Assembly: GCA_029856125.1 (NCBI GenBank)
Contig: JAHQWJ010000120.1
Location: 248,001-312,000 of the forward strand
Direction of reading: 5' to 3'
Length of the DNA: 64,000 bases
Source of the DNA: Promethearchaeia archaeon
Lineage (GTDB): Archaea > Asgardarchaeota > Lokiarchaeia > Sigyniarchaeales > SOKP01
Position numbers and translations under genes: made by a program. Below, one piece after another: positions 55,685 through 64,000 of the stretch (position 1 is its first letter; each line of letters opens with the position of its first letter). Under the pieces are notes generated by a model, which did not search any database, was not told where the DNA came from, and saw only the letters and a program-made list of their open reading frames with translations.

Positions 55685-56605
55685 ATGGGTGAAATATATT
55701 TGAAGGCTGTACTTATTGATGCTCAAACAGCATCCTCCATAATCGCTGCTAAAGACGATTATATTTCTAATTTTAGCGAGTTTGACTTACAGTCGCGCTT
55801 AGGAACCTTCGAAATGGTATCGAAAGAAGACTTAGTAGAATTTCTTTCACGACAGACCGTTGAATGGACAAATTCTGAGGAAATTATCGTAAATAGAATT
55901 TTCAGTGAATTAAATATCTGTTACGCGCCGTACAAAGAATACCTATTGAACAGCGTTAAGCTTATAAAAACCACCGGTCGAGAAGAATGCGACGCTGCTT
56001 ACACGAGAAACACGTGCATATATGTTCCAATTTCGATGGTTCAATGGCCGTACGATCAATTAAAAGAGCTAATTGCTCACGAGCTTTTTCATGTAATCAG
56101 CACTACTAACCCAAAATTCAGGAATGACTTATATCTTAAACTTGGATTTAATGCTTGTCCCGAATTAGATGTCCCTAAAGAATATAAACGGCTATATGTG
56201 TCAAATCCTGATACTATTGGGAAGAATTCCTATGTGAAATTTAAAAATAACGGCGCTCAGATAAAAGCAGTTCCTTTTCTCTATTCTAAAACTCCGTATA
56301 CAGGTGGATATTTCTTTGAATACTTCCGTTTTACATTTCTTGAGTCTGAATTGAAACACGATAAATGCGTCCCGATATATGAAAATAGCCGGCCAAAATT
56401 CATTAGTCCTCCACATGAATTATTTGAGATGTGCGAAGAAATCGACCCCTACAATAACCAACATAGATTACATCCTGAAGAGATTCTGGCCTATTATTGG
56501 AGCTTATTACCTTTTTCTGAATCAAAAATAGAACCTTATAACAGAAGCTATCTCGTAAAGATTCGCAATCTCTTAGAGCAGGAAGGAACCAGTGTATTTA
56601 GTTAA
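55685..56605 (+). CDS. Zincin-like metalloprotein with HELFH motif
   Basis: 306 residues. An HExxH zinc motif is present at 132-136 (LIAHELFHVIS) and a plausible third ligand glutamate at 265-266 in HPEEILAYYW, the gluzincin pattern. A helix before it (DQLKELI) and strand (CIYVPISMV) fit the usual zincin active-site layout. No signal peptide or membrane helix is visible, so it may act in the cytoplasm. Homology to a named peptidase family is not recognised. It could be a protease or a catalytically altered relative. It stands alone, divergent from the double GNAT gene. Confidence 0.65.
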   Translation: MGEIYLKAVLIDAQTASSIIAAKDDYISNFSEFDLQSRLGTFEMVSKEDLVEFLSRQTVEWTNSEEIIVNRIFSELNICYAPYKEYLLNSVKLIKTTGREECDAAYTRNTCIYVPISMVQWPYDQLKELIAHELFHVISTTNPKFRNDLYLKLGFNACPELDVPKEYKRLYVSNPDTIGKNSYVKFKNNGAQIKAVPFLYSKTPYTGGYFFEYFRFTFLESELKHDKCVPIYENSRPKFISPPHELFEMCEEIDPYNNQHRLHPEEILAYYWSLLPFSESKIEPYNRSYLVKIRNLLEQEGTSVFS

Positions 56606-61349: not shown

Positions 61350-62438
61350 ATGAAAATGGAATGGGAGAATAGCGATCGAGAACTTAAACCTCGTAATATC
61401 TATCAAAATGTCTTAAATAGAAATATTAACATAAGAGAAGCTTTTAGGTCATTAATCAATCTTTCACTTTATCATCTTAATCAGGAAATTAAAGCACAAG
61501 CTATTAAAATTCGAATTGATTTAGCTAAATCAAATTTAGTCTGGGAATTTGCACGAAGCAATAATAATATCGAATTATATCTTAATAATGGAGTTTACCC
61601 TTCTGATGCTCCAGTTTTAGCCTTATTAGAAATATTAATAGATTGTGAAATCTTAGGTTACGAAACTAATAATGAAGGCTATATAACTTTTTTGCCTCTT
61701 TTTGGTTCAGATAATTCTTGTGTAGGTGTTTTCCCAGAACAAATATGTGATTTAAAATTTTTGTATGTACTGTATTTTTCACAACAGAATATTAGATCCA
61801 TACCAAAGTGCGTTAAGAACTTAACCTATTTGAAAAAGCTTGATTTAAGCTATAATAATTTAGAGAAGGTTCCGAACGAGATCCAAGAACTTAAGAATTT
61901 GACTTTTTTAGATTTAAGTTTTAATAAAATACAAGAACTCCCTACTTTCGTAAAAGAACTTACACATCTTAACCAGCTATATTTAGCCGACGAGGAGTTA
62001 AATGTGCCCCACAGAAATGTGTTTGATTGCCTGAATGTCGCTGATCTCGAAGAAAATCTTAGCTTAAAAGCATTGTCTGAGTTATTTGCGAAATTAGAAA
62101 AAAAGGAGCAAACTGAACGAAAAGAGCTTACTAAGAAATTTAGCGAACAAAAAGAATTATCTGCAATTATTTACCCTCCGAGAGAAATCTTAAACACCCT
62201 TCTAAATAAACCCCGAAATTTTGAATATGTCATGCTTTGGATGCTGGGTAACAATTTCGCTTGTGGATGGCGCGATTTCAAGTCGGATCCTGTAAATATA
62301 AGTCAAGCAACTTTGTCGAAATATCTCAGCATACTCATCGCAAACAATTATGCGTACAGGGTAAGTAAAGGATATTACATAATAACGGAATCAGGAAGAA
62401 GAAGATTAAACAAAATAGAAAGTAGTATTAAAAAATAA
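61350..62438 (+). CDS. Leucine-rich-repeat protein fused to a C-terminal winged-helix domain
   Basis: 362 residues. Shine-Dalgarno AAAGGTGA lies about 11 bases before the ATG. Residues 1 to about 125 are helical with unknown function. About 130-215 has 23-residue plant-type LRRs (FLYVLYFSQQNIRSIP, LKKLDLSYNNLEKVP, LTFLDLSFNKIQELP). An acidic/basic coiled stretch follows (LEKKEQTERKELTKKFSEQK), then a winged helix-turn-helix at about 285-355 (VMLWMLGNN, DFKSDPVNISQATLSKYLSILI). The winged helix is nearly the same as the first one in the gene at 63369, and a 44-base DNA stretch is identical (62283-62326). LRR plus wHTH suggests a regulator that senses a protein or ligand through the LRRs and binds DNA through the wHTH. 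Confidence 0.75.
   Translation: MKMEWENSDRELKPRNIYQNVLNRNINIREAFRSLINLSLYHLNQEIKAQAIKIRIDLAKSNLVWEFARSNNNIELYLNNGVYPSDAPVLALLEILIDCEILGYETNNEGYITFLPLFGSDNSCVGVFPEQICDLKFLYVLYFSQQNIRSIPKCVKNLTYLKKLDLSYNNLEKVPNEIQELKNLTFLDLSFNKIQELPTFVKELTHLNQLYLADEELNVPHRNVFDCLNVADLEENLSLKALSELFAKLEKKEQTERKELTKKFSEQKELSAIIYPPREILNTLLNKPRNFEYVMLWMLGNNFACGWRDFKSDPVNISQATLSKYLSILIANNYAYRVSKGYYIITESGRRRLNKIESSIKK
62283..62326 (+). repeat. 44-bp exact direct repeat, copy 1 (wHTH recognition-helix DNA)
   Basis: Identical to 63492-63535 over 44 bases. It encodes the SDPVNISQATLSKYL part of the winged helix in the LRR-wHTH gene. Exact identity at synonymous sites implies recent duplication or gene conversion rather than mere protein conservation. 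Confidence 0.85.
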
Positions 62439-62458: not shown

Positions 62459-62527
62459 TTAAAATCTTAATGTGGCAAAATTATAACCCGTTGGGTTTAA
62501 TATTGTTTTGCATCCTTTTCTTTTCAT
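62459..62527 (-). CDS. 22-residue basic microprotein 1
   Basis: ATG at 62527, TAA at 62459-62461. The leader is GAGGTAAAAAAAT directly before the ATG, matching microproteins 2 and 3 and the 107-residue gene at 57045. The product starts MKRKGCK, includes ILNPTGYNF and ends LRF; it is basic with one cysteine. TI, an N and GY at similar spacing, with an R-F near the end, are shared with microprotein 2, so the two may be homologous. No homologue is known to me. The strength of the ribosome-binding site is the main reason to call it a gene. Confidence 0.5.
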   Translation of the reverse strand: MKRKGCKTILNPTGYNFATLRF

Positions 62528-62625
62528 ATTTTTTTACCTCGTTTTTTAATTTGGTTTTGTTTTGTGTATTATTTGTTGTTAAATTGCGAATTTTTAATTA
62601 TTATAAAAAAATGTGGTAATTACAA

Positions 62626-62697
62626 TTACATGTCAAAACGGTAAGGAATATATCCCGCGTTTTTGATGATTATCGTTCTTTTCTCGTTTTTTTCCAT
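62626..62697 (-). CDS. 23-residue basic microprotein 2
   Basis: ATG at 62697, TAA at 62626-62628. The leader is GAGGTAAAAAAAG, again directly adjacent to the ATG. The product begins MEKNEKR, has IIIKNAGYIPYRF and ends with DM. It is basic and moderately hydrophobic in its centre. It resembles microprotein 1 in the central I..(N)..GY pattern and the R-F near the end. A 98-base gap separates it from microprotein 1, so the two could share one transcript. The role is unknown. Confidence 0.5.
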   Translation of the reverse strand: MEKNEKRTIIIKNAGYIPYRFDM

Positions 62698-62772
62698 CTT
62701 TTTTTACCTCGCTTTTTTTTGGTTTTGTTTTAGTTTTGATTTTTGGCTTAAAATTAATAAAAAAATATATTC

Positions 62773-62853
62773 TTAAAATTTACAGATTAAGTTTGCTTGA
62801 TTAAAACCTACAACTAATCTAACATCTTCTTCTTGCTTTTCTTTTCTTCTCAT
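62773..62853 (-). CDS. 26-residue microprotein 3
   Basis: ATG at 62853, TAA at 62773-62775. GAGGT followed by nine A residues precedes the ATG. The product opens with a charged MRRKEKQEED and continues VRLVVGFNQANLICKF, ending in K-F like the R-F of the others. One cysteine is near the C-terminus. It sits 75 bases upstream of microprotein 2 and 65 bases downstream of the 95-residue gene, suggesting one minus-strand unit. No homologue was recognised. Confidence 0.5.
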   Translation of the reverse strand: MRRKEKQEEDVRLVVGFNQANLICKF

Positions 62854-62918
62854 TTTTTTTTTACCTCTTTTCTGTTCTTTTTTTTTCCTGGTTTTTAAAA
62901 TTTAAAAAAATTAATTGA

Positions 62919-63206
62919 TTAGAAATTTATCGTGGAATTGCGAGCTCCAAGAAGCTTTGCGTCTACTTGCCCCTTATACTTGTTTATGCCGACTTTCTCT
63001 TCCGAAATCCTCGCGTTATATTTAAATTTATTGAACACTCTCAAAAGCTTGTTCGATAGTGAACTTGATTCAACCTTCGCTTCTTTGGTGGTATTAACCC
63101 GCACCTGAGGCTCTAACACCTCAGGTGCTAGGTTTTGGGCTATGGTTTGGCATTGGCATTCCAATTGGTCTTTACAAATGGTTTTTTTTTCTATTGCTTG
63201 TGCCAT
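62919..63206 (-). CDS. 95-residue protein of unknown function, first gene of the microprotein unit
   Basis: ATG at 63206, preceded by GTGAAAAAAAA, a weak version of the leader of the downstream microproteins. Its first 25 residues (MAQAIEKKTICKDQLECQCQ) hold three cysteines in a CxxxxxxCxC spacing; the rest is basic and helical (SLSNKLLRVFNKFKYNA). It contains a 10-bp perfect inverted repeat in its DNA (63101-63128). There is no signal peptide or membrane helix. It is divergent from the tandem wHTH gene, and a nested palindrome lies between them. The function is unknown; a small regulatory or toxin-type protein cannot be excluded. Confidence 0.5.
   Translation of the reverse strand: MAQAIEKKTICKDQLECQCQTIAQNLAPEVLEPQVRVNTTKEAKVESSSLSNKLLRVFNKFKYNARISEEKVGINKYKGQVDAKLLGARNSTINF
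63101..63128. repeat. Perfect 10-bp inverted repeat inside the 95-residue gene
   Basis: Arms GCACCTGAGG (63101-63110) and CCTCAGGTGC (63119-63128) enclose an 8-base loop. The stem is GC-rich (7 of 10 bases) in a very AT-rich setting, so it should form a stable RNA hairpin within the coding sequence. It could modulate translation or be a protein-binding site; there is no following T-run on either strand to make it a terminator. Confidence 0.65.
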
Positions 63207-63297
63207 TTTTTTTCACTTTTTTTCTTTTTTTTGTTCGAGTTCTTTTTTTTATTGTTAATTTTATTAACTTCGGGTTCTTTATTTAGTTCTTGTTTAA

Positions 63298-63322
63298 GAA
63301 GTTCGAACGAACTTCGAAGTTC
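63298..63322. promoter_or_regulatory. Nested palindrome, probable operator between divergent genes
   Basis: GAAGTTCG/CGAACTTC (63298-63315, AA spacer) overlaps a second perfect palindrome GAACTTC/GAAGTTC (63309-63322). Three half-sites therefore lie head to head. It is about 18 bases upstream of a TATA-like TTAAATAG (about 63340-63347), which itself is about 25 bases before the ATG of the tandem wHTH gene. A dimeric winged-helix regulator binding here would control both divergent units. Autoregulation by the wHTH protein is my inference. Confidence 0.6.
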
Positions 63323-63368
63323 AGTGCGAATAACAAACCTTAAATAGCTACGAAACCGATCTATAACT

Positions 63369-64000
63369 ATGAGTGAGGTAAAATTTCCACCTGAAGGTAT
63401 AATTACACCTATGAAAATCAACAAAGATTTTGAGCATATTATACTCTGGATGCTCTATAATAATGATGTTTGTTTATGGTCTGATTTTAAATCGGATCCT
63501 GTAAATATAAGTCAAGCAACTTTGTCGAAATATCTTTCAATCTTGATTAGTAATGGTTTTATTGAGAAGGAGATGAAGGGTAAGTATAAAATTACTCCTG
63601 AAGGTCGAAAACAATATGCCGATCTTCAAGTTAAAAATGCACTTGAAAAAACATTAAATTATCCACCTGAAACAATAACAAATAAGAGAAATTACGATGA
63701 TTGGATTCTATGGATGCTATACAATAACCACCATTGTAAATGGTCAGACTTCCTTGAGGAGCCGCTTAGAATCAACCAGTCTTCATTGTCGAAGAATTTG
63801 AATCTATTACTTGAGAAAGGTTATGTTGAAAAGGATAACCGTGAGTATCAGATTACTAATTCAGGTGAATTAGAATACTTCAATATGTTAAAGAAATACG
63901 ATTTGGATCGCCAGTCGATATTAAACGAAGAGACTAAGAGAGTTGAGGTAGTTACAGACAAGGTAGCGGAGTTTTTTAACGAATTCGATATCGAAGATAA
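63369..64000 (+). CDS. Tandem winged-helix DNA-binding protein (partial, runs off the window)
   Basis: From ATG 63369 the frame stays open to the last base (at least 210 residues). Two copies of one winged-helix fold are visible: residues of about 23-80 (ILWMLYNNDVCLWSDF, SQATLSKYLSILI, ITPEG) and about 112-168 (ILWMLYNNHHCKWSDF, NQSSLSKNLNLLL, ITNSG). Each has the same sequence order: helix with WMLYNN, W-S-D-F, recognition helix, two-stranded wing. The first copy nearly equals the C-terminal wHTH of the LRR protein at 61350. A TATA-like TTAAATAG lies about 25 bases before the ATG, so the mRNA is probably leaderless. An expected role is repressor or activator, possibly acting on the nested palindrome just upstream. 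Confidence 0.8.
   Translation, partial: MSEVKFPPEGIITPMKINKDFEHIILWMLYNNDVCLWSDFKSDPVNISQATLSKYLSILISNGFIEKEMKGKYKITPEGRKQYADLQVKNALEKTLNYPPETITNKRNYDDWILWMLYNNHHCKWSDFLEEPLRINQSSLSKNLNLLLEKGYVEKDNREYQITNSGELEYFNMLKKYDLDRQSILNEETKRVEVVTDKVAEFFNEFDIED
63492..63535 (+). repeat. 44-bp exact direct repeat, copy 2
   Basis: Identical to 62283-62326. It encodes the recognition-helix region of the first winged helix in the tandem-wHTH gene. The flanks then diverge within a few bases on both sides, so the shared block is sharply bounded. Confidence 0.85.

Follow-up and report, generated by a model that had tools for sequence, protein, structure and literature searches.

The closest described counterparts of the system considered here are the bacterial RRNPP regulators (Rap/Rgg/NprR/PlcR/PrgX) and their peptides, especially the SHP/Rgg pairs of streptococci. 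The defining signature of this group (PMC10075063) comprises a propeptide of 10–100 amino acids (aa) that is exported, via a Sec signal or, for PptAB, via a basic N-terminus and a long hydrophobic core, and an adjacent receptor of 250–500 aa that carries tetratricopeptide repeats (TPRs) and a DNA-binding domain; the size and mature form of SHPs are described in PMC7564271. Two other groups bear a likeness: SARP/AfsR-type regulators, large single proteins that carry a DNA-binding domain as well as TPRs (PMC10936776), and the micro-proteins of Haloferax (e.g., zinc-finger; PMC10716476, PMC6562870), very small conserved archaeal proteins that are easily missed in annotation. The 64,000-nucleotide stretch analyzed here (the window), part of contig C126 of a lokiarchaeal genome of 3.69 Mb in 153 contigs, carries near its end a locus that can be compared with all three. 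Three minus-strand genes encode microproteins of 22–26 aa, named A, B, and C here, which follow a gene for a 95-aa protein and lie opposite a divergent gene for a large regulator with two winged helix-turn-helix (wHTH) domains and a TPR array. A, B, and C belong to a previously undescribed family of tiny proteins (22–29 aa) in Lokiarchaeia; they may, on a tentative reading to which we assign a probability of about 0.4, be peptide ligands of the TPR regulator in a dedicated lokiarchaeal switch that would be RRNPP-like without export.

The likeness to SHP/Rgg lies in an intracellular regulator with helix-turn-helix (HTH) and TPR domains, a neighboring 20–30 aa peptide gene led by a Shine-Dalgarno (SD) sequence, and many paralogous pairs per lineage. 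Peptide size (22–26 aa in the window, 22–31 aa elsewhere) and a receptor with TPRs and a DNA-binding domain fit the RRNPP signature, but membership was rejected on export signal and receptor length. Judged by hydropathy, none of A, B, and C has a Sec signal or the basic N-terminus and long hydrophobic core handled by PptAB: their grand average of hydropathy (GRAVY) is -0.44 to -0.74, the best 11-residue value is 0.1–1.3, and there is no long hydrophobic stretch. The regulator measures 986 aa, and its paralogues ~630–1030 aa. A microprotein gene directly adjoins the divergent regulator in G003 (~150 nt, L092) and at G008:C8 (L098), whereas in the window the 95-aa gene intervenes. Further differences from RRNPP are the pair of wHTH domains, the number of small products (as many as three peptides and a protein of 65–100 aa), and the archaeal host; no sequence kinship was found. 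Unlike SARP/AfsR proteins, the regulator has no nucleotide-binding domain by Pfam, uses another DNA-binding domain, and faces a small-protein operon. Unlike the Haloferax micro-proteins, A, B, and C are without a zinc motif and constitute a separate group linked to the wHTH-TPR regulator; a 32-aa zinc-ribbon-like type found at some paralogous loci does recall the Haloferax zinc micro-proteins. Such proteins (MKKRIRINCMKCGKEIKLDFTDSRAICKDCGR) occur in the equivalent divergent operons of another genus (L183:3170-3268, L184:1488-1586, L177:5019-5117), and from L177:4686 onward a small-protein start (MVQVLEKK) is apparently fused in frame to a microprotein core (RLIIITNDTDRYHSRYIT).

The first-pass annotation had described three micro open reading frames (microORFs) with GAGGT and 7–9 mostly A bases directly before ATG; all are present as placed, on the minus strand and with 8–9 such bases: A at 62773..62853 (26 aa, MRRKEKQEEDVRLVVGFNQANLICKF; GAGGT at 62863-62867), B at 62626..62697 (23 aa, MEKNEKRTIIIKNAGYIPYRFDM; GAGGT at 62706-62710), and C at 62459..62527 (22 aa, MKRKGCKTILNPTGYNFATLRF; GAGGT at 62536-62540). 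Between GAGGT and the ATG stand nine A residues in A, AAAAAAAG in B, and AAAAAAAT in C. That the leaders are more alike than chance would allow is confirmed by the counts. GAGGT lies 5–10 nt before an ATG in only five other frames of the window. In pattern and profile searches of the 3.69-Mb genome, the leader pattern GAGGTAAAN{2,6}ATG (that is, GAGGTAAA-N2-6-ATG) was found 39 times and a reversed control pattern 14 times; three of the 39 sites fall within 343 nt at this locus, and the chance of two further sites within 343 nt is ~1.6e-6 per site, or ~6e-5 over all 39. Other members of the set precede further microproteins, two at a pair on contig C12 and one at a pair on C18. The products were also said to end in R-F or K-F, which holds for A (KF) and C (RF); B ends in RFDM.

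Comparison with related genomes, mostly draft assemblies, shows that SD-led microORFs recur just downstream of the 95-aa gene at its relatives' loci (microprotein matches weaker than E ~1e-3 were excluded). Counterparts of A stand directly past the 95-aa gene at eight other loci; their C-termini follow (V/I)EGFNPxxLxxRF in the closest species and drift in others. B, the best kept of the three (consensus roughly MEKxEKRxIIIKNAGxxPxRLxF), has counterparts in nine other genus members, its carriers being G000, G003, G006, G007, G008, G009, G010, G014, G017, and G022; the counterparts scored E 1e-11 to 1e-14 in a profile search whose profile contained eight of the nine (G003 was not in it). Matches to the B/B' profile were found in 13 of 65 genomes of the family, every one in this genus. 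In G006 and G007, B starts with GTG and retains the GAGGT leader. The C core NPTGYN is kept in five genomes, among them G010, G014, G009, and G003, and appears as PTGYNPQYFRY in a second genus (g6). By pattern, the resemblance among A, B, and C suggests that they may be homologous.

The variation among relatives is of the kind expected for coding genes. Across pairs of B codons, third positions differ in 41% of cases, first positions in 27%, and second positions in 16%, and pN/pS is 0.52 for B, 0.51 for A, 0.46 for C, and 0.40 for copies linked to elongation factor 2 (EF-2). The observed synonymous share was equalled in 164 of 5000 column shuffles for B and in 55 of 5000 for C, and the shuffles left the frame stop-free in 21 (B), 328 (C), and 145 (A) of 5000. 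The synonymous bias that the first-pass annotation proposed to look for in relatives is thus clear for B and C and weak for A; the proposed GAGGT-A leader is kept in relatives; and in place of lost frames and drifting starts, which would have spoken against genes, at least nine related species retain the frames together with their leaders, starts, and stops. On this comparative evidence it is near certain that A, B, and C are genuine conserved coding genes, and the conserved frames likewise support the earlier suggestion of a microprotein operon with an unknown effector role. For A, the argument rests mainly on position, leader, and likeness among close species. A decayed B remnant without start or leader and with an internal TAG was found in G012 (L093, G012:C328), with a VapBC-like pair nearby as judged by eye. 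The family libraries searched, NCBIfam included, gave no match for the microproteins, and they gave no convincing one for the 95-aa protein. Three candidate resemblances were dropped: that of the B C-terminus to the ESCRT MIM1 motif and that of the IIIKNAG core to streptococcal SHPs are too weak, and a second DNA match of the operon in its own genome (G000:C17, L002) is merely an SD site before an unrelated gene.

Related microproteins occur beyond this operon. Pairs designated A' (e.g., MGKTDIKVVKAKMNFKTLSFMAR) and B' (MDKYEKRTIIIKTPDAFPGRIDF) stand ~230–320 nt upstream of what we take, by eye from its sequence, to be the EF-2 gene in G000, G013, and G016, probably with a matching context in G017; another pair, in G000:C18 and G013:C170, lies separately. 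Where the DNA upstream of the EF-2-linked pairs was examined (G000:C12:280-499, which is L088; L095, L096, L097), it contains a common element, TTCA.CAAATGTTCAA.AGT, followed by ATAGTTTAG. A third kind, at G008:C8, consists of MNGKGKEIIVQNAGYNPIYIIF and two sisters, intermediate in appearance between B and C. Peptides at paralogous regulator loci (e.g., MNKNERIRVFDIIIIQNPAYRAY, MRKIREPTIIINNNQIGYNRPFINY, MNLELKNKEIIIRAPGYDSDYF) share a look: a short charged N-terminus, an xIIIx stretch, and a Tyr/Asn-rich aromatic C-terminus. As the regulator clades differ, so do the microproteins facing them, yet these look similar.

The regulator gene starts at 63369 on the plus strand and continues past the window end (63369..64000). 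The annotation had seen a divergent tandem wHTH regulator; the gene is indeed divergent and in fact encodes a 986-aa wHTH-TPR protein in which a helical middle separates two N-terminal wHTH domains from a C-terminal TPR superhelix. Pfam matches are TPR_2 (E 3.5e-22) and HTH_45 (E 1.5e-10), and the TPR part matches, by fold and by PDB sequence, O-GlcNAc transferase, APC/C, TTC7B, and designed TPRs. The pairing with small-protein genes is constant: the regulator is divergent at 10 of 10 genus loci with the 95-aa gene, at second-genus loci, and also at two loci where microproteins occur in the absence of the 95-aa gene, G003 and G008:C8. Members of its family were found in 50 of 65 genomes, a single genome giving as many as eight strong matches. 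The association was assessed at 47 regulators whose loci were picked from the regulator search, with loci reached by way of the 95-aa gene left out; as some of those used also match the 95-aa profile, the sample is not fully independent. Within 1 kb on the divergent strand, SD-led frames of 18–36 aa outside larger genes have a density of 0.69 per kb; upstream on the strand of the regulator itself there are none in 27.6 kb, and elsewhere the density is 0.12 per kb (p 8e-8). At least one such frame faces 16 of the 47. Shorter wHTH-TPR regulators often adjoin Ras-like small GTPase genes (L195, L209, L210, L213, L176, and others).

The intergenic region between the two transcription units contains a palindromic putative operator, GAAGTTCGAACGAACTTCGAAGTTC (63298..63322), set between divergent putative TATA boxes: one for the small-protein operon (63278..63287, minus strand), for which relatives have a TATATA-like element in the corresponding position, and one for the regulator gene (63339..63347, plus strand; CTTAAATAG). 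Across 63 divergent promoters belonging to the regulator family, GAACTTC/GAAGTTC half-sites number 61 where 2.0 are expected, and the dyad is present in 20 of the 63 and in none of the shuffles; these counts describe rather than test the motif, which was first read from the same promoters. No other copy of the 21-base core was found in the genome at up to three mismatches. Because the palindrome is conserved and has no second genomic copy, a dedicated regulator is likely, and we infer that it binds the palindrome and controls both promoters.

In the proposed switch, the divergent promoter with its single palindromic operator would serve the wHTH-wHTH-TPR regulator on one side and, on the other, an operon of the helical 95-aa protein and two or three SD-led microproteins. 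The latter would remain in the cell, making the loop intracellular, because they show neither an export signal nor a hydrophobic core. Extended peptides are common ligands of TPR grooves, and the conserved cores with their aromatic C-termini (xIIIxNxGYxPxRLxF, NPTGYNxxxxRF, EGFNPxxLxxRF) could, as linear peptides, fit into that of the regulator; a docked microprotein would alter the DNA binding of the regulator at the shared operator, resulting in feedback. In favor of this reading are the coding signals, the constancy of the regulator as a neighbor, its clear TPR identity, the conserved operator with its single genomic copy, and the different but similar-looking microproteins opposite different regulator clades.

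Several observations weigh against the ligand reading. The strongest objection comes from orphan pairs that have no adjacent regulator (the EF-2-linked pairs in G000, G013, G016, and probably G017, and the pair alone on G000:C18): they suggest that microproteins also act without the regulator, in which case they would be effectors and the regulator would merely control them. Up to three microproteins plus a 95-aa protein would exceed a simple ligand–receptor pair, and many regulators have no detectable microORF in the divergent kb: under a broad SD rule applied to all loci, one is present for 29 of the 47 long regulators and for 5 of the 14 short ones. The structural model of the regulator has a mean predicted local distance difference test (pLDDT) score of 58 and is good in the TPR and wHTH parts only, and a fold search with it returns generic TPR proteins. 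The coding signal of A is weak, its synonymous share having been reached in 1706 of 5000 column shuffles, which is not significant. Finally, what favors ligands comes from comparative sequence throughout.

The orphan pairs, standing alone or directly upstream of EF-2 with no regulator beside them, point instead to microproteins and 95-aa protein as the output of the switch: adaptors or inhibitors acting on other machinery (e.g., translation or small GTPases), with the TPR regulator sensing something else. This main alternative is a real possibility, if short of an even chance. It would accommodate the helical 95-aa protein made by the same operon and the 32-aa zinc-ribbon-like microproteins of other loci, as well as the shorter regulators (<800 aa), which over all loci more often have Ras-like GTPase genes opposite them in place of microproteins (6 of 14, vs. 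1 of 47 long regulators). However, no target or domain is recognizable in any microprotein, and if any regulator would serve, so specific and constant a pairing with a TPR protein would not be needed.

The divergent, probably autoregulated layout, the many diverse paralogues, and the patchy presence also recall a defense or toxin-antitoxin-like locus in which the microproteins would be peptide toxins or triggers repressed by the wHTH protein, and the B remnant in G012 does lie near that VapBC-like pair. Yet the peptides are charged and lack a membrane-spanning stretch, PADLOC detects nothing in four of the five proteins tested and only weak wHTH similarity in the fifth, the regulator, and no homologue of the 95-aa protein was found in the viral contigs searched; such a role is improbable. 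Still less probable are leader peptides or translated attenuators acting on a downstream gene of the same transcript. Short SD-led frames followed by T-runs would suit them, and the EF-2-linked pairs do have a same-strand downstream gene, but here the microORFs are last in the operon and are followed by a convergent gene, and conservation extends along most of each peptide. That the frames arose by chance in A/T-rich intergenic DNA is very unlikely: the flanks are AT-rich and of low complexity, the signal of A is weak on its own, and one B copy has decayed, but conservation of frames, leaders, starts, and stops in many species already contradicts chance for B and C.

The first gene of the operon, at 62919..63206 on the minus strand, encodes the 95-aa protein and lies upstream of the microORFs, as had been noted (63206-62919 in the direction of transcription). 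Homologues are found in 36 of 83 genomes of the class, and at E < 0.001 in 11 of 58 genomes searched, its own counted; all named records that carry the gene are Candidatus Lokiarchaeota / Lokiarchaeia metagenome-assembled genomes. The protein has no convincing family match. In its AlphaFold2 model (mean pLDDT 69; pLDDT ~70–92 in the helix), the N-terminus is disordered and residues 41–94 form a single helix. At L090, L102, and L103, 81-aa paralogues (MEQ..KYNAKYLEEL..YRNYG) follow a partner gene of 75–84 aa, with no wHTH-TPR regulator nearby. On the other side of the microprotein genes, a convergent gene (61350..62438, plus strand) encodes a 362-aa protein with leucine-rich repeats (LRRs) and a wHTH domain that resembles the first wHTH of the regulator: 62218-62326 and 63427-63535 are 81% identical in DNA over 109 nt, and, because of this identity, the LRR-wHTH protein may compete for the site of the regulator. 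It is associated with the system at some loci only, LRR-wHTH-like genes or fragments being present at the G008, G022, and G003 loci. A 306-aa putative zinc peptidase, encoded ~6 kb away in the window (55685-56605), directly follows the microprotein operon in G010 (L004:2303-3214), which implies the gain or loss of several intervening genes.

Among known prokaryotes, Asgard archaea are the most closely related to eukaryotes, and to our knowledge little is known about their gene regulation or any use of peptide signals; in the literature, as far as it was covered, no description of the present microproteins or of peptide signaling in Asgard archaea was found. A broader proposal, that Lokiarchaeia evolved their own HTH-TPR peptide signaling, independent of bacterial RRNPP, with microproteins as ligands and cognate microprotein–receptor pairs diversifying together, is speculative and, in our estimate, rather unlikely. 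A family-wide module in which TPR regulators recur with tiny proteins absent from the searched libraries nevertheless makes the question of peptide signals in Asgard archaea directly testable, and it shows a class of conserved lokiarchaeal genes that lie below the usual size limits of annotation.
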